Positions 4,219 through 16,005 of a stretch of 64,000 bases of DNA are shown one piece after another. The stretch spans positions 581,039 through 645,038 of the forward strand of contig CP007051.1 in assembly GCA_000517565.1 (NCBI GenBank). Direction: 5' to 3'. This DNA is from Desulfurella acetivorans A63 (GTDB lineage Bacteria; Campylobacterota_A; Desulfurellia; Desulfurellales; Desulfurellaceae). The first letter of the stretch is position 1, and every line of letters starts with the position of its first letter. Below the pieces are notes generated by a model. The model was not told the origin of the DNA. It worked only from the letters and a program-made list of their open reading frames with translations, and did not search any database. The position numbers and the translations under genes are program-made.

Positions 4219-4686
4219 CTAAGCCCTAAGCGTTGCAACGAGCCTTTTTGGGTATAAAAGCAGCTCAAGGGCGCTTACTATATCGCATACTATAATATCG
4301 CTGTTTTGAAGCGCTTCAAGATTTGCGCCTTCTTTACCAATTACACAAATACCCAATTTAGCATATTTTAGCATAAGAGAGTCATTTTTGCCGTTTCCTA
4401 TAGCTACTAAATTTGAAAGCCCGATTGATTTTGCATATTCTAATTTAAATGTTATCTGGTCGATTAATGGCGCAATAATGGTTTTGACATTCAAGCCTTT
4501 TAACTGTTCTTTAGCGCTTGAAAAAGTATCGCCTGTAACAATATGAATATCAAATGCTTTGGATAGTTTTTCTAAAATGTCTTTAGTTTCTTTTATTAGT
4601 ACTCCGCTTGTTGCCAGTGTGCCGTTAAAGTCTAATATGATGCGTTTTAAGACAATTTTACCTACACTCAAAATTTCAATTTCCAT
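4219..4686 (-). CDS. HAD-superfamily phosphatase (soluble P-type-ATPase-like)
   Basis: Protein of 155 aa without a cap domain. Motif I is DFNGTLA (Asp19), motif II lies in HIVTGD (~54-59), and motif III/IV is GNGKNDSLMLKYA (~97-109), which resembles the P-domain of P-type ATPases. It has an unusual Asn in place of the second Asp of DxD, as seen in the DFNGT subgroup. The substrate cannot be told. It overlaps the upstream zinc-ribbon gene by 11 nt, so the two are coexpressed. Confidence 0.85.
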   Translation of the reverse strand: MEIEILSVGKIVLKRIILDFNGTLATSGVLIKETKDILEKLSKAFDIHIVTGDTFSSAKEQLKGLNVKTIIAPLIDQITFKLEYAKSIGLSNLVAIGNGKNDSLMLKYAKLGICVIGKEGANLEALQNSDIIVCDIVSALELLLYPKRLVATLRA

Positions 4687-5053
4687 ATTTTTCCTCCAAT
4701 TTATTAATAAAGTTTGTTAAAAGCATGTTATTTTTTTCTTTTAGTTTATATAGGTATTTTATAGACTCTTTGGTATTTATTAATTTTAGTGTTTTTGCAA
4801 TATAGAAAAGCTCAATTGTATCAGAGCTTGAGCAGGAAAGCTCGTATAGGGGCTTAACTGCTTTTGGGCTTAAAATTTGCCCAAGCATGTAAATTGAAAA
4901 CATTCTGTGATCTCTTATAGGATTTTTAAGTGCTAAGATAAGTTTATCCTCGTAAGAAATTTTTTCAAATTCAGTCAAGTCATAGTTGCAATGCGGACAT
5001 TTATTTGTTTTTCTTTCAATTTGTTGCCAGCAATTTGGACAAAACCATTTCAT
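4676..5053 (-). CDS. Zinc-ribbon protein with HEAT-like helical repeats, function unknown
   Basis: Protein of 125 aa. An N-terminal zinc ribbon has CxxC pairs at Cys5/8 and Cys19/22. It is followed by amphipathic helices (~35-115) resembling two HEAT repeats. A strong GGAGG precedes the ATG. It is translationally coupled to the HAD phosphatase. No specific family function is recognised. Confidence 0.75.
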   Translation of the reverse strand: MKWFCPNCWQQIERKTNKCPHCNYDLTEFEKISYEDKLILALKNPIRDHRMFSIYMLGQILSPKAVKPLYELSCSSSDTIELFYIAKTLKLINTKESIKYLYKLKEKNNMLLTNFINKLEEKYGN

Positions 5054-5108: not shown

Positions 5109-6959
5109 TCATAGCTTGAATATAAAGAGTGCAATTATAAACATAGCTATAATGTAGGCTATATAATAATTTAGATTTCCATTCATAATATATTTTGACA
5201 AAAAACAACTAAGTTTTTTAAACAAAATTTCTAAGCCTTGATAAATTAAATTTGAAACATCATAACTTTCAACGTAAGTGTCTTTTTCTTTCGTTCTGTA
5301 AATACCCCTTAGTACATATTCTACTATAAATGAGTAGCCCCGCGTGTTGTACATTTCATTTTCTTTTAATTTGAGACCACCTACCCACGGAGTAACTGTT
5401 TTTGTTTTTTTGTTTGAAAATTTTAACAATAAAGTAAAAAAAAGTAAGAAACCAAAAACTATTGCAAACATAAATGGTGAAACCACGCCAAAGATAGGTC
5501 TACTAGAAACCATTAAAGCAGGTTTTGGTACACCTAATATACCATCTAAAAAATTATTGTATCCAAGATAAAACACAATTAAAAATGAAAATATACCGCT
5601 TAAAATAACTAAAGCACTCATAAGGTTTTCAGCCAGTTTAATAGTAAAGTCTGGAATCTTTTTGATTGTTTGTATAGATTTTCCTAAACTTGAAAATCCT
5701 ACCAACTTTTTTATGCCAAACGAGCTAAGTCCTATTGCAAGGGCAATTAATATACCAGCAAAAGTTACAATTAGCTTAAAAAAATTATCCTGAAATTTAT
5801 ATGATTGAAATAAACTTTCAAGTAGCATCCATTCAGAAACAAAACCTATTAAAGGTGGCACTGCGCTAAATGATAAACCAGAAATTAACATACCAAAACC
5901 AGCTGATTTGCTGACATTTTTTAGTATGCCACCTAAATCGTCTATATTTTCTTTTTGAAGTGTTTCTTTAGCGTGACCTATGGATAAAAACATTGTAGTT
6001 TTAGACAAAGAGTGTGATATTATTAAAAAAATCGCAGTTAGGTAAGAAAAATCAGCTAATATATTTAAATTACTATACCTCGCAAGCATGCTTACGCCTA
6101 AACTTGCTAAAATCATACCATTATTCTCCACTGTGGAATATGCGGGTAGTGTTTTTAACTGAGTTTCTCTGGCTGATTGTAATGCTCCCCAAAATGCACT
6201 TAAAGCACCCAGAATAACAGCTATAATTGCTAAAAAAACTGATTTTTCTAATGAAAAAACTCTAAAAACTCCATATGTGCCCACAAGCGTAAGAGGTACG
6301 GATAGTATAGCAGCGATATTAGATGGCGCTTTTGAGTAAGTTTGACCAATCCATACATGAGTGGGCACGATATCCATTTTTATAATGAACCCTAAAAATG
6401 CAAATAATGCAAATAGGTAATTATTTCGATATGCTTGAAATAAAAAATTTCCACTATGGGCAAATATAATTGCAAAAGCAATCATTAACAAAACACTGGA
6501 GCCTTCAGAAAATGCTAAAAATTTGTAAGCTTGCTTGTATGAATTGGACTTTTCTAATATTAAAAAAAATAAACTAATATTTGTAATCTCAAAAGCAACT
6601 AAAAATGTAATAGCATCTTTTGCACAAAATATAAACAACATACTTAACATTGTGAGGTTTATTAAAAATGACATTGTTTTACTAAATAGTTTTCCAAAAT
6701 CTATTGAATACAAAGCAATTGCACTAAAGCAAACATACGCTATAATTAAAAATACGGCAGATAGTTTATCAACACCTATACTTAAGCTTAGACCATTAAA
6801 TACATTGATTTGATAAGAAAAACCATTAATATAGCCTTCAAATCCTACAAAAGTGCAGCTTATTGCACCAAGGACGGCAAAAATATAACTCAATGATTTA
6901 TTAAAAAAAACAGCCATACCTAAAATAAAAAACAAAATTGCAAAATCAAATGTTAACAT
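5109..6959 (-). CDS. Mrp/NuoL-type antiporter subunit of hydrogenase-like complex (HyfB-like)
   Basis: Protein of 616 aa with about 14-16 membrane helices and the proton-transporting core typical of NuoL/HyfB. The TM5 glutamate is in LVAFEITN and the TM7 lysine in FIIKMDIVPTHVW. A C-terminal extension ends in a further membrane segment. It is the last gene of the six-gene operon and overlaps the small-subunit gene by 7 nt. It should translocate ions as part of the complex; with no redox module in the operon, the driving reaction is unclear. Confidence 0.87.
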   Translation of the reverse strand: MLTFDFAILFFILGMAVFFNKSLSYIFAVLGAISCTFVGFEGYINGFSYQINVFNGLSLSIGVDKLSAVFLIIAYVCFSAIALYSIDFGKLFSKTMSFLINLTMLSMLFIFCAKDAITFLVAFEITNISLFFLILEKSNSYKQAYKFLAFSEGSSVLLMIAFAIIFAHSGNFLFQAYRNNYLFALFAFLGFIIKMDIVPTHVWIGQTYSKAPSNIAAILSVPLTLVGTYGVFRVFSLEKSVFLAIIAVILGALSAFWGALQSARETQLKTLPAYSTVENNGMILASLGVSMLARYSNLNILADFSYLTAIFLIISHSLSKTTMFLSIGHAKETLQKENIDDLGGILKNVSKSAGFGMLISGLSFSAVPPLIGFVSEWMLLESLFQSYKFQDNFFKLIVTFAGILIALAIGLSSFGIKKLVGFSSLGKSIQTIKKIPDFTIKLAENLMSALVILSGIFSFLIVFYLGYNNFLDGILGVPKPALMVSSRPIFGVVSPFMFAIVFGFLLFFTLLLKFSNKKTKTVTPWVGGLKLKENEMYNTRGYSFIVEYVLRGIYRTKEKDTYVESYDVSNLIYQGLEILFKKLSCFLSKYIMNGNLNYYIAYIIAMFIIALFIFKL

Positions 6960-7405
6960 ATCAAACCACCCTGCGCTATTTCTATTAATTTTTTTAAAAT
7001 TCCTGTGGGTTCTGAAACGTTTTTTAGGTGAGCTACCACATTTTTCAAATTTAATTTTTCAAAATAAAGTCCAATATTGCTGTTTTCTATAAGCATTACA
7101 CCATAAGGAGAAGGCATTTGAGAAATAGCTTCTTGTATAATGGGCAACATTTTTTGTGTTGGTCTTGAGAGAATCACAAGCACATCAGCATGACGGGGTG
7201 TATTCGTAAAAAAGATTCCATAAGCGTGTAAGTTATATTTTGGCGATAATAAGCTGTAAAATTCAAGCAGTAACTCAACATCTGATCCTCCATCTATAAA
7301 AAATACATGCAATGATTTTTTAAATACTGTTTTTGAATTATTTGTTTTAAATTCGAATTTTTTGCTGTATTTTTTTGATAGTCCATAAATGGGCCATAAA
7401 AACAT
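6953..7405 (-). CDS. Degenerate NiFe-hydrogenase-like small subunit (NuoB/HyfI homologue without Fe-S ligands)
   Basis: Protein of 150 aa. The HADVLVIL-(x)2-PT block and the PRHAD context align with HyfI/NuoB. The CNGC motif that binds the proximal 4Fe-4S cluster is replaced by DVEL (residues 42-45), and the later cluster cysteines are also missing; the only Cys is the last residue. It cannot carry the usual cluster. Such small subunits are known in energy-converting hydrogenase-related (Ehr) complexes. Confidence 0.8.
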   Translation of the reverse strand: MFLWPIYGLSKKYSKKFEFKTNNSKTVFKKSLHVFFIDGGSDVELLLEFYSLLSPKYNLHAYGIFFTNTPRHADVLVILSRPTQKMLPIIQEAISQMPSPYGVMLIENSNIGLYFEKLNLKNVVAHLKNVSEPTGILKKLIEIAQGGLIC

Positions 7406-7417
7406 TTTATCTCCTCC

Positions 7418-8647
7418 TTATTTCGCCGCATCCGAAAAAAATGCGCCAAACGATTCTACAGTAAACGTAAAATCAGTAAAAATTTGTCCTATTAGAGCTT
7501 TTTCCATTGCTTTAACTAAAAAAAATGATGGTGTTGCGACATAAACATAATCTATTTTATTACCTACAAGTTCAATGTAATAATAAATTGTACCGCTTGG
7601 GGATTCTGTTAGTGCAATAGTGTTTCTTTTTTGTTGATCATCGTCAATACTTATATTTTTATTTTTTTCATCTATATTTTTTTGAAGTTTGATTAAAAGT
7701 TTTTTAATTAAATCTATTGATTGAAAGATTTCTTTTGCCCTCACAATCATCCTTGATAACGCATCTGATCCTTCTTCTAAAATAGGTTTAAAATCATCAA
7801 ATAAATCTTCAAAAGACCTGGTATCTAAAGAAAAATTCATTGCTTTTACAGCTGGACCATCAAAATTAAATTCTTCGAAGTCATCTGTTGTAAGAAGTCC
7901 AGTGTTGTGAAGTCTGTCTAAGTAATTTTCGCTTTTTAGAGAAAATTTATAAAGTTTTTCAAACTTGTTTACAATGTTTTCAAGCTTATTTACAAAAATT
8001 TTTAATTGATCGAGTGATATATATTTTATTGTACCTATGCTGTTGATATTTTTTAAAAATCTGTTTTTAAAAAGATATTTGTTGTTTTCAAGAATTTCGT
8101 CAAATAGGTATATAAGATGATTTGCTAAAACTTTTTGAGCTGCTGCATCTGCTAAACGTGAAATTACATATATATGGTTAAATATACGTTCAGTTTCTAT
8201 AAAAATTAATCGCATAATTTTTGTTTTGTAGCTTGGTTGTATATTAAATGCATTTTCTATTGCTTTTGAATAAGCGCAAGAATGAGAAAATGCAAAACTT
8301 GTGCAAATTTGCTCAGCAAGTCGCAATCCTTCAAAAACATCCTTTTTAATCATTAATTTTTCTATTGAACGTGATTTGTAAGAGTTATCAATATAAACTT
8401 CTTTTATTCTTTCACCATAAGTAAAAATATTGAATGTAACCGATTCCAATAAAGCACCACTTGATGGACCCAATCTAAAATTGAACAACTCGTCTTTTGG
8501 TTCTTTTGACTCAAAAAGTTCTTTTTGCCACTTATATGCTTTAAATTCTTTGCTTTGTGAATTATCAACGAGACCAACAAATGAACCAGAGTTTACAAAT
8601 AATTGCTCTGAATCTTCTTTTTTTATTATGCCAAGTAATCTTTTCAT
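7418..8647 (-). CDS. Degenerate NiFe-hydrogenase-like large subunit (HyfG/HycE homologue lacking Ni ligands)
   Basis: Protein of 409 aa, homologous to group 4 hydrogenase large subunits and NuoD. The N-terminal Ni motif (RxCGxCxxxH) reads ICTSFAFSH, so Cys115 and His122 survive but the second Cys is Phe118. The C-terminal DPCxxC is GAFFSD (401-406), with Phe and Asp in place of both cysteines. Three of four Ni ligands are thus lost. The protein also stops at this point without the usual cleavable tail. This is the hallmark of Ehr-type complexes rather than a working hydrogenase. Confidence 0.85.
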   Translation of the reverse strand: MKRLLGIIKKEDSEQLFVNSGSFVGLVDNSQSKEFKAYKWQKELFESKEPKDELFNFRLGPSSGALLESVTFNIFTYGERIKEVYIDNSYKSRSIEKLMIKKDVFEGLRLAEQICTSFAFSHSCAYSKAIENAFNIQPSYKTKIMRLIFIETERIFNHIYVISRLADAAAQKVLANHLIYLFDEILENNKYLFKNRFLKNINSIGTIKYISLDQLKIFVNKLENIVNKFEKLYKFSLKSENYLDRLHNTGLLTTDDFEEFNFDGPAVKAMNFSLDTRSFEDLFDDFKPILEEGSDALSRMIVRAKEIFQSIDLIKKLLIKLQKNIDEKNKNISIDDDQQKRNTIALTESPSGTIYYYIELVGNKIDYVYVATPSFFLVKAMEKALIGQIFTDFTFTVESFGAFFSDAAK

Positions 8648-10005
8648 TTAATTACTCCTTGAAGGAATCGGTATAAAAATGGCAAGGATATAAAAGTAAG
8701 TATTGATAGTGTAATATTTATTATGGGCACTAACGTAAAATTGCTTTCTTTTATAGCTTTTTTTCTTTGACCACTAAAAACCATATTTATAACTTTGTAA
8801 TTTATAAATAAAAAGCCACATCCAACAAAGGAAATTAATATTGATCCAATAAGCCAGCCATATAGGTCAATAGTTTTTGATAAAATTAGAAATTCTCCAA
8901 AAAAAATAGCAGAAGGCGGAGCACCAGTGACAGCTAAGCTACCAAAAAACAAAAATAAACCAGTGTGTGGCATAGTTTTAATTATGCCATTTATATCTTC
9001 AATTTTTTTGCTTTTATAATTATGCAGTATATTACCCGTGAGCATAAAAATACCAGATTTTGCAAATGCATGGGCAAATATCAAAACAATTGCACCAAAT
9101 AGAGCGTATGATCCCAAACTAATTCCAATCAATGCAAGTCCCATATTTTCAATCGAAGAATAAGCAAAAAGTCTCTTGTATAGTGTTTGGTTTAAACTCA
9201 TAATGCTTGCTGTAGCAACACTCAAAAAACCTAAAATAAAAGCGAATTCAGATAACAATATATTGTGATTTATCTGGAAAAGCCTTATAATTGGATACAG
9301 CGACACAGGTAGTAGTACTGCACTAAATATAGCACTAACTGGTGCTGGTGATTTGCCATGGGCGTCAGCAAGCCAAGTATTCATAGGAAAAATTCCAGCT
9401 TTTGTACCATAGCCTATAATTAAAAGTATTGCGCCTAATAAAAATAAACTACCTGTTGGTTTTATAGTAAGTAATTTGAATATTGATAGCGTATCGCAAG
9501 CAGAGTATAAAAATAATGTAGCAATAAGTGATATTACAAGACCCACAGAAACAATTATAATATAGCGCCATGCAGCTTCCAGTGCTGTAAAGTCATTTTC
9601 TACAGCAACAAGTAAAGCACTTGAAAATGTGGTTGCTTCTATGCCAACCCAAATAAGACCTAAATTGTTTAGTATTACACTGAAAAACATTGCTGCAACG
9701 AAAATATTTAAAAGCATGAAATATTGATAAACTTTTATAAAACGCTCTTTTATATTTGAAATGTACTCAATGGAAAAAATTACGACGCCAAAATATACAA
9801 TAGCTATCATTAAAGAAAATATTTTTGAAAGGTTATCTACATAAAAATAACTGCTTGAATAGTTTTTGCTAAACAAAATGAAAATAGAACTTATTAAACT
9901 CAATAAGCTTGTAAAAACAGATACAGTGCGTTCTTTTTTCCTAAATCCAATAAAGCAAAGTATAGAACCAATTGTAGCAAATAATGCTGGTAGCGTGTAA
10001 ATCAT
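8644..10005 (-). CDS. NuoN/HyfF-type antiporter subunit of the hydrogenase-like complex
   Basis: Protein of 453 aa and about 14 membrane helices, in the NuoL/M/N antiporter family. The conserved glutamate is in GIEATTFS and the lysine in GYGTKAGIFPMNTWL, followed by PAPVSAIFS. It overlaps both neighbours by 4 nt. It is the second antiporter-like subunit of the complex, so the assembly would have two antiporter channels plus the NuoH-like subunit. Confidence 0.88.
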   Translation of the reverse strand: MIYTLPALFATIGSILCFIGFRKKERTVSVFTSLLSLISSIFILFSKNYSSSYFYVDNLSKIFSLMIAIVYFGVVIFSIEYISNIKERFIKVYQYFMLLNIFVAAMFFSVILNNLGLIWVGIEATTFSSALLVAVENDFTALEAAWRYIIIVSVGLVISLIATLFLYSACDTLSIFKLLTIKPTGSLFLLGAILLIIGYGTKAGIFPMNTWLADAHGKSPAPVSAIFSAVLLPVSLYPIIRLFQINHNILLSEFAFILGFLSVATASIMSLNQTLYKRLFAYSSIENMGLALIGISLGSYALFGAIVLIFAHAFAKSGIFMLTGNILHNYKSKKIEDINGIIKTMPHTGLFLFFGSLAVTGAPPSAIFFGEFLILSKTIDLYGWLIGSILISFVGCGFLFINYKVINMVFSGQRKKAIKESNFTLVPIINITLSILTFISLPFLYRFLQGVIK

Positions 10006-10625
10006 CCGTATAGTTCCTCCTCTTTTTGGATATCTTCGTCACGAATTTTCATTAATATACCACCTATCATAACAATGCCTAAAATATCTAAAATAATCCC
10101 TGCTTCAACAATAAAAGGTAATCCGTTAAATAAAAAGGATAACAAGAACATAGAGTTTTCCATAACAAGGTATCCAATCAATTGAGCATATGCATTTGAT
10201 CGAGACATTATTAAGAAAGCACCTTGAAGCATAAGTGTAATAGGAATTGATATCAATGATTTACCAAATTCGAAAAATACTAGTGTGTATAAAATATAGC
10301 TAAAGATAGCAAGTAAAACTGATATTAAAATAGATAGACTAACGCTTACTTTGTGTTTATTTTCTCTTGCTCGAAATATTTGTTTGTTTATGGTATTTAT
10401 TAAGTAACGTGGGATAAAGATTGCTCTAGTCAGAATTGTTAAAATTGATAGAATTATAATTGAAATATTATTATTTAAAACACCAAAATACATCAAAAAA
10501 ATTCCTAAAATCCAGGATTGAATTGAGAATGTTTTGATATTGTTTGAAACATAATTTTGCCATTGCATAAAAATCGATAATGCTATTTCTATAAAACCAA
10601 TCAGTATAAATACATTATGTTGCAT
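10002..10625 (-). CDS. HyfE-like membrane subunit
   Basis: Protein of 207 aa with about six hydrophobic helices. Length and position between the NuoH-like and HyfF-like genes match HyfE (NuoK-related) of hydrogenase-4. It overlaps the next gene by 4 nt. Individual motifs are weak, so the call leans on gene order. Confidence 0.75.
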   Translation of the reverse strand: MQHNVFILIGFIEIALSIFMQWQNYVSNNIKTFSIQSWILGIFLMYFGVLNNNISIIILSILTILTRAIFIPRYLINTINKQIFRARENKHKVSVSLSILISVLLAIFSYILYTLVFFEFGKSLISIPITLMLQGAFLIMSRSNAYAQLIGYLVMENSMFLLSFLFNGLPFIVEAGIILDILGIVMIGGILMKIRDEDIQKEEELYG

Positions 10626-10628
10626 TTT

Positions 10629-11579
10629 TTATCCTCCGCTTGTTGTTATGTAAAATACAAGCATAGCCAATAGCGTAAAACTAAAAGCTATAGCTATATA
10701 ATCAAAGATTTTAAATAGTCTGTATTTTGAAACCATACTGTTAATAAATGCAAAGATTATAAGCAATATAATAATTTTAAAAAAATTGATAAACATATAA
10801 AAAAATATTGAAATCAAGCTTAATTTCATGGGAACAAAAAATGGCCATGTATAAACATTTAAAAAAACATTCATTAAAATAAATTGTTTAATATAGCTGC
10901 CCCATTTTAAGAGAGCTAATTCTCTGCCTGAATATTCATGAATTAATAAAGTATCAATTGAACCTAATTCATTTAAAGAGTTGCTTTCTATGGGTAGTTG
11001 TCCGATTTCAATAATTAAAACAAATAAAAATGCAAGAGCTATAAATAAATGCACTAAAGAATAATACCAGCTTGTTGAAGTTTGCATTATGTTGTTAATT
11101 ACATAAGGATTGTTGGTACCTGAAATAACACCAAGCATAATAAATATTAGCAAAATAACCGGTTCAGTAAATATTCCTATACTTGATGATCGTGATGCGC
11201 CTAAAATTGAATAATTATTTCTGGAATCAAGCGCAGAAAGTTTAATAAGGGTCGATGCAGCACCAAACACTAAGCCGCCACCAACAAAGTCAACAACAGG
11301 ACCAAATGTTAAAGGAAATGCGGTAATAATAGGCAACACCAAAGTTAAAAATAAATACATTGCAAAGCTCATATATGGTACATAAGCAAAAAATATTGAA
11401 GAGGATTCTGGGTAAATGCTTTGTTTTTTAAAATATTTAAATAGATTGTAATACTCTTGGAATATAGAGGGTCCCCCTCTTGAAGACAATCTTTCATTGA
11501 AAAAATTTAAAATTCCAATAGCTAAAGGAGATAGGATAATTACATACAACAATTGCGCAATACTTAAATAAAACAGCAT
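10629..11579 (-). CDS. NuoH/HyfC-type membrane subunit, first gene of the operon
   Basis: Protein of 316 aa and about eight membrane helices. The NuoH signature loop is present as RGGPSIFQEYYNLFKYF near residue 33. The IEIGQLPIES and LLIHEYSGRELALLKW blocks provide the acidic residues linking the quinone/hydrogenase side to the membrane arm. It lies ~65 nt downstream of the fluoride riboswitch. Ribosome-binding sequence is weak (GCGGGG). Confidence 0.88.
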   Translation of the reverse strand: MLFYLSIAQLLYVIILSPLAIGILNFFNERLSSRGGPSIFQEYYNLFKYFKKQSIYPESSSIFFAYVPYMSFAMYLFLTLVLPIITAFPLTFGPVVDFVGGGLVFGAASTLIKLSALDSRNNYSILGASRSSSIGIFTEPVILLIFIMLGVISGTNNPYVINNIMQTSTSWYYSLVHLFIALAFLFVLIIEIGQLPIESNSLNELGSIDTLLIHEYSGRELALLKWGSYIKQFILMNVFLNVYTWPFFVPMKLSLISIFFYMFINFFKIIILLIIFAFINSMVSKYRLFKIFDYIAIAFSFTLLAMLVFYITTSGG

Positions 11580-11723: not shown

Positions 11724-11751
11724 ATTTTAAATTTTTTATTCATTTTGTCAA
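11724..11751 (-). promoter_or_regulatory. Promoter of the riboswitch and hydrogenase-like operon
   Basis: -35 TTGACA at 11751-11746, 16-bp spacer and -10 TAAAAT at 11729-11724. The start would fall a few bases before the riboswitch aptamer at 11714. Confidence 0.7.
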
Positions 11752-11760
11752 GGCTAAAGC

Positions 11761-11789
11761 TTGAAAACACATTAAATTTGCTTTATTAT
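11761..11789 (+). promoter_or_regulatory. Promoter of the CLC gene
   Basis: -35 TTGAAA (11761-11766), 17-bp spacer, -10 TATTAT (11784-11789). The ATG at 11799 begins 10 nt on, so the mRNA would start at or within a few bases of the start codon. Confidence 0.6.
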
Positions 11790-11798
11790 AGCAAAAGA

Positions 11799-13009
11799 AT
11801 GAATATTTCAAGAATAATTAGGTTGAAACTTTATAAACTAACAAAAGATTTTGGTTATGTAATTTCAAATCAATCTTATTTTCTAAAATGGCTTATTTTA
11901 GGATCTATAGTTGGTGTAATTGCTGGTTTTGGTGCTTTAGTTTTTTATTATTCTATAAAACTTTCAGAAAGTTTCTTTTTACAATACTTGCTTGGCGCAA
12001 AATTGCCGCTACCAAAAGGCGAAAATTTAAGTGAAACTTTTGCAATAAAACGTGCATATTTGATACCATTTGTAGTAGCTTTTGGAGGTTTGATTTCAGG
12101 TTATTTAATTTTTAAATTTGCACCAGAAGCAGAAGGACATGGCACAGATGCAGCAATTGATGCTTATCATAATAAACAAGGTAACATTAGACCGCGCGTG
12201 ATTTTTTTAAAAACTATAGCTTCTGCTATAACAATAGGCTCAGGTGGATCAGCTGGTAGGGAAGGGCCGACTGCTTTGATTTCGGCTGGCATCGGGTCTT
12301 TAATTGGCAAAATTCTACACCTTAATGTTCAAGATAAGAGAAAAATTGTAGCAATTGGTATTGGTGCAGGGATTGGTACAATTTTTAAAGCACCAATAGG
12401 TGGTGCAATTTTAGCTGCTGAGGTTCTTTATAAAAGAGATTTGCAGTCTGAAGTAATTTATCCAGCTATTGTAGCAAGCGCGATAGGTTACTCTATATTT
12501 GGAAGTTTTGTAGGGTTTGAGCCTATTTTTGGGTTTTATAAATCGCCATTTAACCCATTAAGGTTGCCGTTTTATATTATTTTAGGTGTTGTGTGTGGAT
12601 ATTTAGCTATTGTTTACCCAAAAACATTTTATTATGTAAAAGAAAAATTTGCAAAACTTAATATAAATAACATTTACAAACCAGCAATCGGTGCATTTAT
12701 AAGTGGCTTAATTTCTCTTATTTTTCCTGAAGTAATAGGCGTTGGTTATGGGTGGATTCAGTTACTTATAGATGGGAAATTTAACGTATTGCCAACACTT
12801 GGTTTACCAGTTTTGTTAATTTTTTTAATAATGCCTTATCGGCTACAATTTCTACGACACTTGAAGATGCATGGAAACTTATGAGTGCAAATAAAACCAC
12901 ATGGCTACCTGTTGTTGAAGATTCTATGTTTCTTGGCATTGTTAGTTTTGCTGATATATCTGATATTTACAGCAAAAAGCTTAAGGAATTAAATTTGGAT
13001 AACAAATGA
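11799..13009 (+). pseudogene. Disrupted CLC chloride-channel gene with remnant of C-terminal CBS domain
   Basis: From the ATG at 11799 the reading frame encodes helices A to about M of a CLC channel: GHGTDAAI, GREGPTA with the gating Glu, and IFKAPIGGAILAAEV. It then stops at 12884 after the sense is lost near 12830. In another frame from about 12827 to 13009 runs an intact end of a CBS domain (TTLEDAWKLMSANKTTW, then WLPVVEDSMFLGIVSFADI). The last CLC helices, including the GxFxP region, and the first CBS repeat are missing, so an internal deletion plus frame change has occurred. The CBS stop overlaps the next gene as ATGA, a relic of coupling. Confidence 0.85.
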
Positions 13010-13980
13010 ACGATTTTGTTTTTACTGGTAAAATAAGCATTAATGCATTTTGTTCTCATAATACATATTGGAAGAGTGCGTGCAGTAAATGTATAGAGGT
13101 ATGCCCATTCGAAGCTTTAGCTATTGATTTTGAGAATAATGTTGTGGTTGGTGATTGTATTGGCTGTGGTGTGTGTTATAGTGCCTGCGAAAACGATGCT
13201 ATAGAATTAAACCGAAATTTGGATATAGATATTATAAAGAATGTTACAGAGCCTTCATTTGGCTGTATTTTTGCTAAAGGTGATAACAAAATATCATGTA
13301 TTTCGAGGTTAGGTGAAAATTTGATTGTGTATTTTGTATTGAAATTTGGCTATATTAATATTTTTAAAGGAAATTGCGAAAAGTGCAAATTTAAAATGTC
13401 ACTTGAGGTTTTTGAAAAAAATTTAAAAAAAACCCAGGAAATTTTAAAAGCACTTGATATAAGTTTTGATGCAGTAAAAATTGAGCAGTCCAGTTTGGAT
13501 AAGCCTTTTGAGCCAAATTTTGGTATTTCCAGAAGAGATGTCTTTAAAATTAAAGAAAGAGTACCTAAAAGAGACTTTTTGATTGAGCTTATTAAAGAAA
13601 ATATAAAACAAAGTGCAGAATATATTGGCACAATAAGGCTTTCAATAAATGAAATTTGTGATTTTTGTTCAATTTGTGAGTCAGTTTGTCCAAAAGGTGC
13701 AATTATTATAGAAAAACGCGAAACTGCTGCTATTTACTTTAACCCATCGCTGTGCAGTGCTTGTAAAAATTGCATTGATGCATGTCCAAAAAATGCTATT
13801 ACTGCAAAAAAAGCTTTTGTAGAAGATTTAATACCAAAAGCATTAAAGCTTTTTGAAAAACCTAAAAAAATTTGTTCTTGTGGCAATGTTTACTATACTG
13901 ATGAAGAAATTTGCCCAGAGTGCGAGATAAAAAATAAAAAAAGACAGGAATTGCTAAGCTACATAAAGGATTTATTTTGA
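13006..13980 (+). CDS. Multi-cluster ferredoxin-type protein with C-terminal zinc ribbon
   Basis: Protein of 324 aa. The N-terminal pair of 4Fe-4S motifs is CSKCIEVCP and CIGCGVCYSACE. A middle segment with scattered cysteines (CEKCKFK) follows, then a second ferredoxin pair CDFCSICESVCP and CSACKNCIDACP, and a C-terminal CSCGN...CPEC zinc ribbon. It is cytoplasmic, with no signal. It could shuttle electrons to an unknown partner; the specific role is not recognised. It was coupled to the now broken CLC gene, and its end overlaps the convergent STT3 gene by 9 nt. Confidence 0.75.
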   Translation: MNDFVFTGKISINAFCSHNTYWKSACSKCIEVCPFEALAIDFENNVVVGDCIGCGVCYSACENDAIELNRNLDIDIIKNVTEPSFGCIFAKGDNKISCISRLGENLIVYFVLKFGYINIFKGNCEKCKFKMSLEVFEKNLKKTQEILKALDISFDAVKIEQSSLDKPFEPNFGISRRDVFKIKERVPKRDFLIELIKENIKQSAEYIGTIRLSINEICDFCSICESVCPKGAIIIEKRETAAIYFNPSLCSACKNCIDACPKNAITAKKAFVEDLIPKALKLFEKPKKICSCGNVYYTDEEICPECEIKNKKRQELLSYIKDLF

Positions 13981-16005
13981 TAATTGTTTGGGTTCTTTGT
14001 TTACTTTGTATAAAACCATTGTAGGAAAATTATCAAAGACTAACTCAAAATACTCTGGATCATAGTTTCTTAAAATATACATTTGGTTAAACATTGAGTA
14101 AAATGGTTGTTTTTGCAGAATGTAAACATTTATTTTTGAGTTTTTAAGATAAACTACATCAATATGCAAACCGTCACTATCAAGACTTTTAATAGTTAGT
14201 TTTTTGTCTTTATAAATGGCAAGTGTATTGATATTAAGTTTTAAAGATGGGGTTTTTAAGTACATTTTTTTTATATTTATTTCATTTAGTCCACAGAAAA
14301 CTGTATCTTCTGATTTTTTTTTGCAATCTCCAAGTTGCCCAATTGGCTCAAAAATACCTTTTTTCTTTTTAAAATCCCATGTTCCAAAATAGTTTATCCA
14401 ACCAAATTTGCCAATTTCATCACCAGTAAATGCAAAGTATGTAGGCCTTTTAAGTGGTGCGTTAAACTTTCCTTCAAATATTTTGTCTCTAATTTCCTGA
14501 GGGGTATTTTTTTCTTTTAGTAATTTTTCTATGCCTGTATTGCCAATATTTGATATAGCACTTATTGTATTGTACGCAATTTCTGGGTTTGAATCAGAAT
14601 AACTTGTAGCTATAAAGTAAGTTTTTGGGTATATCTGTGATTGCCCATCGTGAAAAGTGGCTCTATTTGCAAGAAATTCTATAGCAGTACCGTAATCCCA
14701 CCATGTCCAGATTACAGACGACTTTGGCGTAATTTTATTCAAATTAACGAAATCTGCATAAAGCTGTGGCGTAATTTTAGGTTCTGCAATTACTATGTTT
14801 GGTGCAAGAGGAATTATTGTCAATACAATAGCCATAATACTTGCAACAACATTTTTTACATTATTGATTTTTTTTATATTCAATTTTACTAACATATCAA
14901 ACAAATAACCAAACCCTAATCCTAAAAAAGGCGCAAGATACATAGCAAATCTTTCAGCACCTTTAAAAGACATCAAACCTATAAAAAATAATGGTAAAAA
15001 AACCATGAATTTTCTAAAATTCATTATTAAAAACAGTGCCAAACCAACAAGTGATGCCAAAAAAACTATAAAATTTCCACTTGTTAGCTGTGATAGATAA
15101 TGTAAATTAACGCGTGCGGCTTCTGCGATAGATACAAATACATTTGGAAAAACGCCCATTGTAGGTTTAAAGAAATCAATCAAATAAACATTAATTAAAA
15201 AAATAGCATTGTGTATACCCATATATAGTATGATTGGGTTTGTGCTTATTAGAAAAAGAATACTTTCTTTCCAGCGTTTTTTATAAACATTTGGGTCAAA
15301 TATATGAAAAAATTTATCAGTTTTTTGAGTAAAACCAAACGAGAGTATATACACAATGGCAAACGCTAATATTATGCCTTCGTGCATATACCACCAGTAA
15401 TAAAGTTGCGCAAAAATACCAGCTATAATTGCATAAAGGTAGCTTTTTTTAGGTTGCCTAAACTGGCTTAAATACAAAAAATATCCAATTGCCAGTGGAA
15501 AAAATAAATTCATACAATCTGGCCTTAGTCTTGCAATTAATGTTCGTGCTATATAAATTAAAGACAAAACACCCGTTACAGAAGAGCTGAAAGCTGCCAA
15601 AGGATAACCCAAATCCATTAGATAAAAAACAAGCGGTATAACAAAAAGTACTGCAAGTATAGGTACCATATAAACAGACAAATTTTGAATTGAAACATGT
15701 AGTAATTTTGAAAGTTCAGCACTTAAAAAGCTTATCATAAAAATTACAGGCGGAAATGTAGCTATTTTATCTGGATAGAATCTTAGAGGATCTTGCTTTA
15801 ACGGTTTATATAAGCCTTCATTAAAAGCTTTTGCATAGTAAGAATAGTAGAATGCATCGTATTCAGTATATAATGCATTCCCTTTGTAGTAGTATTTGGA
15901 AGGGTTCTGGTTCCAAACATACAAACTATAGAACCTGTATGCAAGACCAAGTGAAATGGCTATACATATTATTAAAAGCGAAATTAAAACTTTTTTTCTA
16001 CTCAA
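13972..16005 (-). CDS. Oligosaccharyltransferase STT3/PglB-type
   Basis: Protein of 677 aa that transfers lipid-linked glycan to Asn of exported proteins. There are about 11-13 N-terminal membrane helices. The acidic ExD in EYDAFYY (Asp50) is the metal/catalytic loop, and the periplasmic domain carries WWDYG (435-439), which recognises the sequon Ser/Thr. TTG start at 16005 with AGGAAG 6 nt upstream. No pgl glycan genes are adjacent. It is close in size to Campylobacter PglB (~713) and also to archaeal AglB. Confidence 0.9.
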   Translation of the reverse strand: MSRKKVLISLLIICIAISLGLAYRFYSLYVWNQNPSKYYYKGNALYTEYDAFYYSYYAKAFNEGLYKPLKQDPLRFYPDKIATFPPVIFMISFLSAELSKLLHVSIQNLSVYMVPILAVLFVIPLVFYLMDLGYPLAAFSSSVTGVLSLIYIARTLIARLRPDCMNLFFPLAIGYFLYLSQFRQPKKSYLYAIIAGIFAQLYYWWYMHEGIILAFAIVYILSFGFTQKTDKFFHIFDPNVYKKRWKESILFLISTNPIILYMGIHNAIFLINVYLIDFFKPTMGVFPNVFVSIAEAARVNLHYLSQLTSGNFIVFLASLVGLALFLIMNFRKFMVFLPLFFIGLMSFKGAERFAMYLAPFLGLGFGYLFDMLVKLNIKKINNVKNVVASIMAIVLTIIPLAPNIVIAEPKITPQLYADFVNLNKITPKSSVIWTWWDYGTAIEFLANRATFHDGQSQIYPKTYFIATSYSDSNPEIAYNTISAISNIGNTGIEKLLKEKNTPQEIRDKIFEGKFNAPLKRPTYFAFTGDEIGKFGWINYFGTWDFKKKKGIFEPIGQLGDCKKKSEDTVFCGLNEINIKKMYLKTPSLKLNINTLAIYKDKKLTIKSLDSDGLHIDVVYLKNSKINVYILQKQPFYSMFNQMYILRNYDPEYFELVFDNFPTMVLYKVNKEPKQLSK

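Follow-up and report, generated by a model that had tools for sequence, protein, structure and literature searches.

This study concerns a six-gene operon within a 64,000-nucleotide stretch of the Desulfurella acetivorans A63 genome (GCA_000517565.1, contig CP007051.1, positions 581,039 to 645,038 of the forward strand), which was analysed as a whole and is called the window below. The genes lie on the minus strand in the order hyfC-E-F-L-S-B, with spacings of -7 to +12 bases between them, and encode four membrane subunits together with a hydrogenase-like large subunit (L) and small subunit (S) (Table 1). From their sequences we infer that the six genes, hereafter the cassette, specify a complete complex-I/Ehr-like membrane complex that gave up redox chemistry. 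Family profiles relate L to the 49-kDa complex I family as well as to NiFe hydrogenases, while S matches NuoB families weakly and no Pfam family; the best sequence matches of both in the PDB are 6cfw and 7z0s. The host genome (1.82 Mb) is grouped with Hippea/Desulfurella-type genomes and carries a separate, ordinary complex I at 248-250 kb.

Table 1. Genes of the cassette and its surroundings (window coordinates)
Gene	Position	Strand	Product and supporting matches
hyfC	10629..11579	-	NuoH/HycD-like membrane subunit, 316 aa; Pfam NADHdh, E 5e-25; matches HycD 7z0s_D
hyfE	10002..10625	-	HyfE with NuoK-like part, 207 aa; NCBIfam hydrogenase 4 membrane subunit, E 1e-11
hyfF	8644..10005	-	antiporter-like, NuoN/HyfF type, 453 aa; Pfam Proton_antipo_M, E 7e-53; PDB alignments
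L	7418..8647	-	hydrogenase/NuoD-like large subunit, 409 aa; without Ni ligands and without complex I quinone ligands
S	6953..7405	-	NuoB/MbhJ-like small subunit, 150 aa; without any Fe-S ligand
hyfB	5109..6959	-	antiporter-like, NuoL/HyfB/HycC type, 616 aa; NCBIfam hydrogenase 4 subunit B, E 8e-88; PDB alignment to HycC, MbhH
zinc-ribbon/HEAT	4676..5053	-	small protein with zinc ribbon and HEAT repeat
ClC	11745..12884	+	ClC chloride channel
polyferredoxin	13006..13980	+	polyferredoxin-type protein, several 4Fe-4S motifs
membrane protein	13972..16005	-	677 residues; WWDYG motif

Redox sites of the L and S subunits

Both CxxC pairs by which group-4 hydrogenases bind Ni are gone from L. Its first motif reads QIC115TSF118AFSH122S where hydrogenases have CGxCxxxH, and its C-terminus, SFGAF403F404SD406AAK (G401 to K409), stands opposite hydrogenase DPCxxCxxR, leaving C115-x-x-F118 and F403-x-x-D406 in place of the two pairs; the C-terminal alignment is gapless against both SIDPCxSCTER of hydrogenases and SxDxVxGExDR of complex I. 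F118, H122, F404 and D406 are fixed in all 25 aligned copies, and R58, H177, D244, Y356 and likewise D406 are invariant and specific to the clade. C115 is kept in 23 of the 25 and is V or S in the other two, on which ground a metal site formed by C115 and a conserved His was rejected. Because C115 varies whereas the aromatic residues F118 and F404 are invariant there, the old Ni site appears to be plugged, and an open substrate pocket at this position is not favoured.

The main quinone ligands of complex I, His38 and Tyr87 (Thermus Nqo4 numbering), are equally missing. The His38 column corresponds to residue L67 of the window protein and is variable, and the Tyr87 column corresponds to T116 and holds G, S, A or T across copies; with neither ligand present, L is predicted to have no quinone site. 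That an L-type subunit should have no Ni ligands is, taken by itself, nothing out of the ordinary, being usual in complex I and also in Ehr complexes (PMC6349859).

S aligns with Pyrococcus furiosus MbhJ, in a profile alignment without gaps, such that S41-D42-V43-E44-L45 stands opposite SCNGC. CNGC has thus been replaced by DVEL, and the possibility that it was deleted was rejected. Where the third and fourth cluster cysteines would be expected, the loops are shorter and hold no Cys, and the sole cysteine of the window protein is its C-terminal residue, C150. L45 is fixed in 26 of 26 aligned copies, 11 of which contain no cysteine at all. A compensating conserved cysteine was sought in L and S across the orthologues and none was found; a cysteine pair at the third and fourth ligand positions of Thermotogota and Spirochaetota S proteins was considered for this role and is read as a relict, the CxxC being absent. 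Pfam and NCBIfam searches detected no ferredoxin domain in any of the six genes. What is unusual about the cassette is that the small subunit has lost its cluster and that the ferredoxin domain is missing as well, not that L has lost its Ni ligands. Papers in the open-access literature, to which our search was limited, report missing Ni ligands in Ehr complexes (including PMC6349859), and we found no mention there of a cluster-less small subunit.

AlphaFold models built on the family alignments indicate that the L-S fold is retained despite the lost sites. The model of L (predicted local distance difference test score, pLDDT, 86.7) has template modelling (TM) scores of about 0.74-0.79 to complex I and 0.76 to MbhL (6cfw_L), and that of S (pLDDT 80) has a TM score of 0.67 to MbhJ (6cfw_J) and also matches NuoB structures.

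Much of this had been anticipated by a sequence-only reading of the stretch, which placed Cys115, Phe118, Phe403 and Asp406 at the Ni-ligand positions of L, read DVEL for CNGC in S, saw neither later cluster cysteines nor a ferredoxin-like subunit, concluded that the complex has no visible electron path, and left its energy source open. The alignments and domain searches bear out each of these points, and no internal electron path is visible. The pocket for another substrate that it proposed to look for in L is not favoured, given the plugged appearance of the old Ni site.

Distribution, selection and ancestry

A search with the large subunit found L in 17 of the 25 genomes of the host's group. 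L and S are jointly present or jointly absent in all 25, and the cassette comes or goes as a whole. Wherever L occurs in the group it is accompanied by S and the membrane genes, arranged as C-E-F-L-S-B save at contig ends. A scan of bacterial genomes yielded 15 further operons, including ones from Thermotogae, Spirochaetota and Bacteroidetes; with a further three Thermotogota copies, examined over their full length, the L and S copies inspected come to 35. All 35, from at least five phyla, lack any CxxC pair and any proximal-cluster set.

One could perceivably regard the operon as a decaying hydrogenase that drifts towards loss, and both the relict cysteines in Thermotogota and Spirochaetota copies and the absence of the cassette from several genomes of the group would be in keeping with this. 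However, the reading frames are intact in nearly all copies (the exception being one split hyfF, in L052), and the ratio of nonsynonymous to synonymous substitution rates (dN/dS), calculated pairwise by YN00 on the closer pairs of cassettes, is 0.11-0.18 for L and 0.09-0.32 for S, well below 1. Together with the fixed substitutions and the conservation across several phyla, this purifying selection refutes decay or neutral drift for the whole clade, to which we assign next to no probability, and it upholds the earlier impression that the missing ligands exceed simple decay.

In a maximum-likelihood tree of L with 78 rows, the cassettes form a clade of 26 rows (support 100/100) whose stem is long, at about 2 changes per column. 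The clade is sister to Ehr with joint support of 100/99, and both branch from group 4 NiFe hydrogenases; a complex I row (L209) groups with complex I and is not counted as cofactorless. The relict cysteines that Thermotogota and Spirochaetota copies retain in the third and fourth ligand columns show that the ancestor of the cassette bound a cluster.

The loss of this cluster is not confined to the cassette. In the Ehr small subunits of six genomes (L185, L190, L195, L122, L150 and L181) the proximal cysteines have become D-x-x-[A/C], D and N, with one of the two ferredoxin clusters still looking complete, and in a further Ehr small subunit (L132) the proximal cluster was lost in another manner, the later positions holding A, G and D. 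The Ehr operons of all these genomes (Spirochaetota/Bacteroidota, G039) retain ferredoxin-domain cysteines despite the loss of the proximal cluster. The L tree requires three changes, so that across the wider Ehr group the proximal-cluster ligands disappeared on at least three occasions. By the approximately unbiased (AU) test a single origin of the N2-less state is rejected (p = 2e-39), and so is the hypothesis that both losses within Ehr go back to one event (p = 0.0012). With at least three independent losses, complexes of this kind have thus repeatedly been kept without an electron path.

The cassettes of Desulfurellota are not monophyletic (AU test, p = 0.0004), and the six-gene set has therefore moved between phyla. 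Movement as a complete six-gene unit suits a self-contained machine.

The membrane arm

Residues of the putative ion path were compared in the cassette alignment, with positions equated to those of complex I relatives by PDB alignments; conservation of the membrane-arm charges is 90% or more, and most of them are invariant. The invariant ones comprise E123, K202, H312, K316 and E371 of HyfF, E124, K194, H316, K320 and E381 of HyfB, and E156, E174 and D180 of HyfE, and in HyfC E191, E198, E204, D209 and E215 are kept. As judged from these alignments, the antiporter-like membrane arm is intact, with the ion half conserved and the redox half lost, the loss being fixed. Conservation is highest in HyfC, whose mean pairwise identity is 63% as against 45-51% for the other subunits. 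HyfC contains a conserved, clade-specific loop, TNNPYxxNNxxQTS, which canonical Ehr HyfC does not have and which homology to NuoH would place on the outer face.

These observations bear on the idea that L-S is a pseudoenzyme that serves only in the assembly or regulation of the membrane arm or of another respiratory complex, with no transport role for the cassette itself. Subunits of this sort often persist as scaffolds, and L and S do evolve somewhat faster than HyfC. On the other hand, ion-path residues are kept in all four membrane subunits, and it is the complete six-gene unit that travels between phyla, so that we consider this idea quite improbable.

Genes around the operon

Neighbouring genes differ between genera, and no constant partner gene lies beside the cassette. 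In Desulfurella the ClC chloride channel gene stands divergently beside the operon, and a gene 57% identical to it is found about 4 kb from the cassette of a Thermotogota genome (L058, 15603-17399). The zinc-ribbon/HEAT-repeat protein is encoded directly downstream of hyfB and has distant homologues near the cassette in Paludibacter-like genomes (L072, L074). The WWDYG motif of the 677-residue membrane protein is, from its sequence, the one seen in STT3/PglB oligosaccharyltransferases. Adjacent pairs of MutS-like proteins, recognized by the sequence of their ATPase domain, occur near the cassette in five genomes (L035, 15362-18350; L058, 2804-5871; L070, 12786-15943; L133, 14763-17001; L135, 14742-17836), and their presence in three phyla hints at joint transfer. 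The polyferredoxin-type gene lies upstream of the operon and is conserved only in the genus Desulfurella; a constant redox partner beside the operon was accordingly rejected.

A redox-driven pump would nevertheless be conceivable if an external redox enzyme docked on L-S, or if a soluble partner reduced quinone between L and HyfC. Ehr complexes are usually assumed to be fed by partners such as formate dehydrogenase (PMC6349859, PMC7894505), the L-S fold and the HyfC acids facing L-S are retained, and in Desulfurella a polyferredoxin gene is present at 13006-13980. But without a proximal cluster there is no relay from a docked donor to the membrane, the columns of the two quinone ligands hold variable small residues, the ferredoxin domain of Ehr is gone, and neither the polyferredoxin nor the other neighbours stand beside the cassette in other genera. 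We therefore regard an external electron donor as improbable.

Proposed function

The cassette complex probably moves ions without electron chemistry of its own. Specifically we propose, and give about an even chance, that the membrane potential itself powers a redox-free, Mrp-like cation/proton exchanger, or else a gated conductor of protons, on which L-S forms a non-catalytic cap. The charged channels of HyfB and HyfF would provide the passage for protons and/or another cation and would connect, along the axis of the membrane, with the acidic path that runs through HyfE and HyfC; L-S would sit on HyfC on the cytoplasmic side and keep the ion path gated or regulated. As a site of ion entry or of contact with a partner, the HyfC loop would be the best candidate. 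There is precedent for this: antiporter modules of complex I, taken in isolation, conduct protons with no redox chemistry (PMC11496545), and Mrp antiporters are reported to exchange cations on the proton-motive force alone (PMC7419157, PMC8415708). The MnhG family, which is specific to Mrp, is missing in Desulfurella and in 13 of the 17 genomes of its group that carry the cassette, which is compatible with an antiporter role of the cassette.

Several points weigh against this proposal. The strongest objection is that the strong constraint on the L-S cap is hard to explain by transport alone; the L-HyfC interface could instead host a non-redox reaction or receive a regulatory input. Moreover, the conserved acids and lysines would equally fit a pump driven by an unseen cytoplasmic reaction. 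Finally, the likeness to Mrp is incomplete, in that Pfam and NCBIfam found no MrpB, E, F or G among the six genes, and true Mrp complexes have MrpA-type C-terminal regions which the cassette lacks.

The first of these objections leads to a scheme in which the membrane potential is coupled to a non-redox reaction or to a ligand change, with the site at the HyfC-L interface and not at the old Ni site. In DAB2 a NuoL-like subunit drives such a reaction, CO2 hydration, in the cytoplasm (PMC13144422), and both the high conservation of HyfC with its polar loop and the clade-specific invariant residues of L could be understood in this way. Yet the operon encodes no carbonic-anhydrase-like or other enzymatic domain, the inconstant C115 and the invariant F118 and F404 suggest that the old site is plugged, and several of the invariant L residues may be merely structural. 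This coupling seems to us unlikely.

Going back to ion movement without redox, we put slightly better than even chances on the broader view that the cassette represents a widespread complex-I-like class that retains the whole Q-module scaffold (NuoB, NuoD and NuoH homologues) without redox, and in which the gradient alone exchanges ions or drives another reaction. The fixed loss of every recognisable redox site, together with the two further losses in Ehr, argues that the transport half can be useful alone. If this is true, the parallel losses of redox centres would mean that the proton-path function is separable from electron transfer in nature, and a natural complex I without redox would offer a system in which to study directly how the hydrophilic domain contributes to gating of the membrane arm. 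We know of no function established for Ehr complexes, which to our knowledge are generally assumed to pass electrons; Ehr function thus gains a testable hypothesis. As a matter of caution, such operons should not be annotated as hydrogenase-4 or formate hydrogenlyase.

Comparison with known systems

Group 4 [NiFe] hydrogenases (MBH, formate hydrogenlyase, Hyf) share with the cassette the fold and sequence homology of L and S and the same types of membrane subunit, but possess Ni-Fe CxxC pairs, a CxxC-x(n)-C-x(n)-C proximal cluster and ferredoxin subunits, all three of which the cassette lacks. Complex I (Nqo4/NuoD, Nqo6/NuoB, NuoH, NuoL/M/N) has an acidic residue at the fourth Cys position, as does the cassette L, and homologous charges in the membrane arm, but differs in its N2 cluster ligands, its H38/Y87 quinone ligands and its NADH module, none of which the cassette has. 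With Mrp antiporters the cassette has in common antiporter-like HyfB/HyfF with a conserved Glu/Lys path, an MrpC/NuoK-like part of HyfE and the lack of redox centres, and relative to Mrp it adds the NuoH-like HyfC and the NuoB/NuoD-like cap. The DAB2/DabAB complex for CO2 hydration driven by the proton-motive force (PMC13144422) likewise combines a NuoL-like membrane subunit with a redox-free cytoplasmic part; no DabA-type carbonic-anhydrase-like domain was seen in the six genes or their immediate neighbours, the cytoplasmic part of the cassette being the hydrogenase-like pair.

The closest relatives are the Ehr complexes of Geobacter and comammox Nitrospira (PMC7894505, PMC10284858), in which the same six subunits (HyfB, C, E, F, L and S) are encoded in one operon and L is without Ni ligands as well. 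The sampled canonical Ehr S proteins, in contrast, have four cysteine ligands (in CNxC, GxC and PGCP) and a fused ferredoxin domain, both missing from the cassette; canonical Ehr L keeps GPIHAG and has mostly lost the first cysteine, whereas the cassette L keeps the first cysteine and H122 and has lost that His; and the canonical gene order B-C-E-F-L-S has become C-E-F-L-S-B, with hyfB moved to the end of the operon. The sequence-only reading had spoken of a clear Ehr-type complex, and the Ehr relationship is indeed well founded in the sister grouping, although the complex is not a canonical Ehr. Since it shares Ehr descent but has neither the canonical Ehr cluster nor the ferredoxin domain, the cassette is, on present sequences, best called a cofactor-free sister clade of Ehr.

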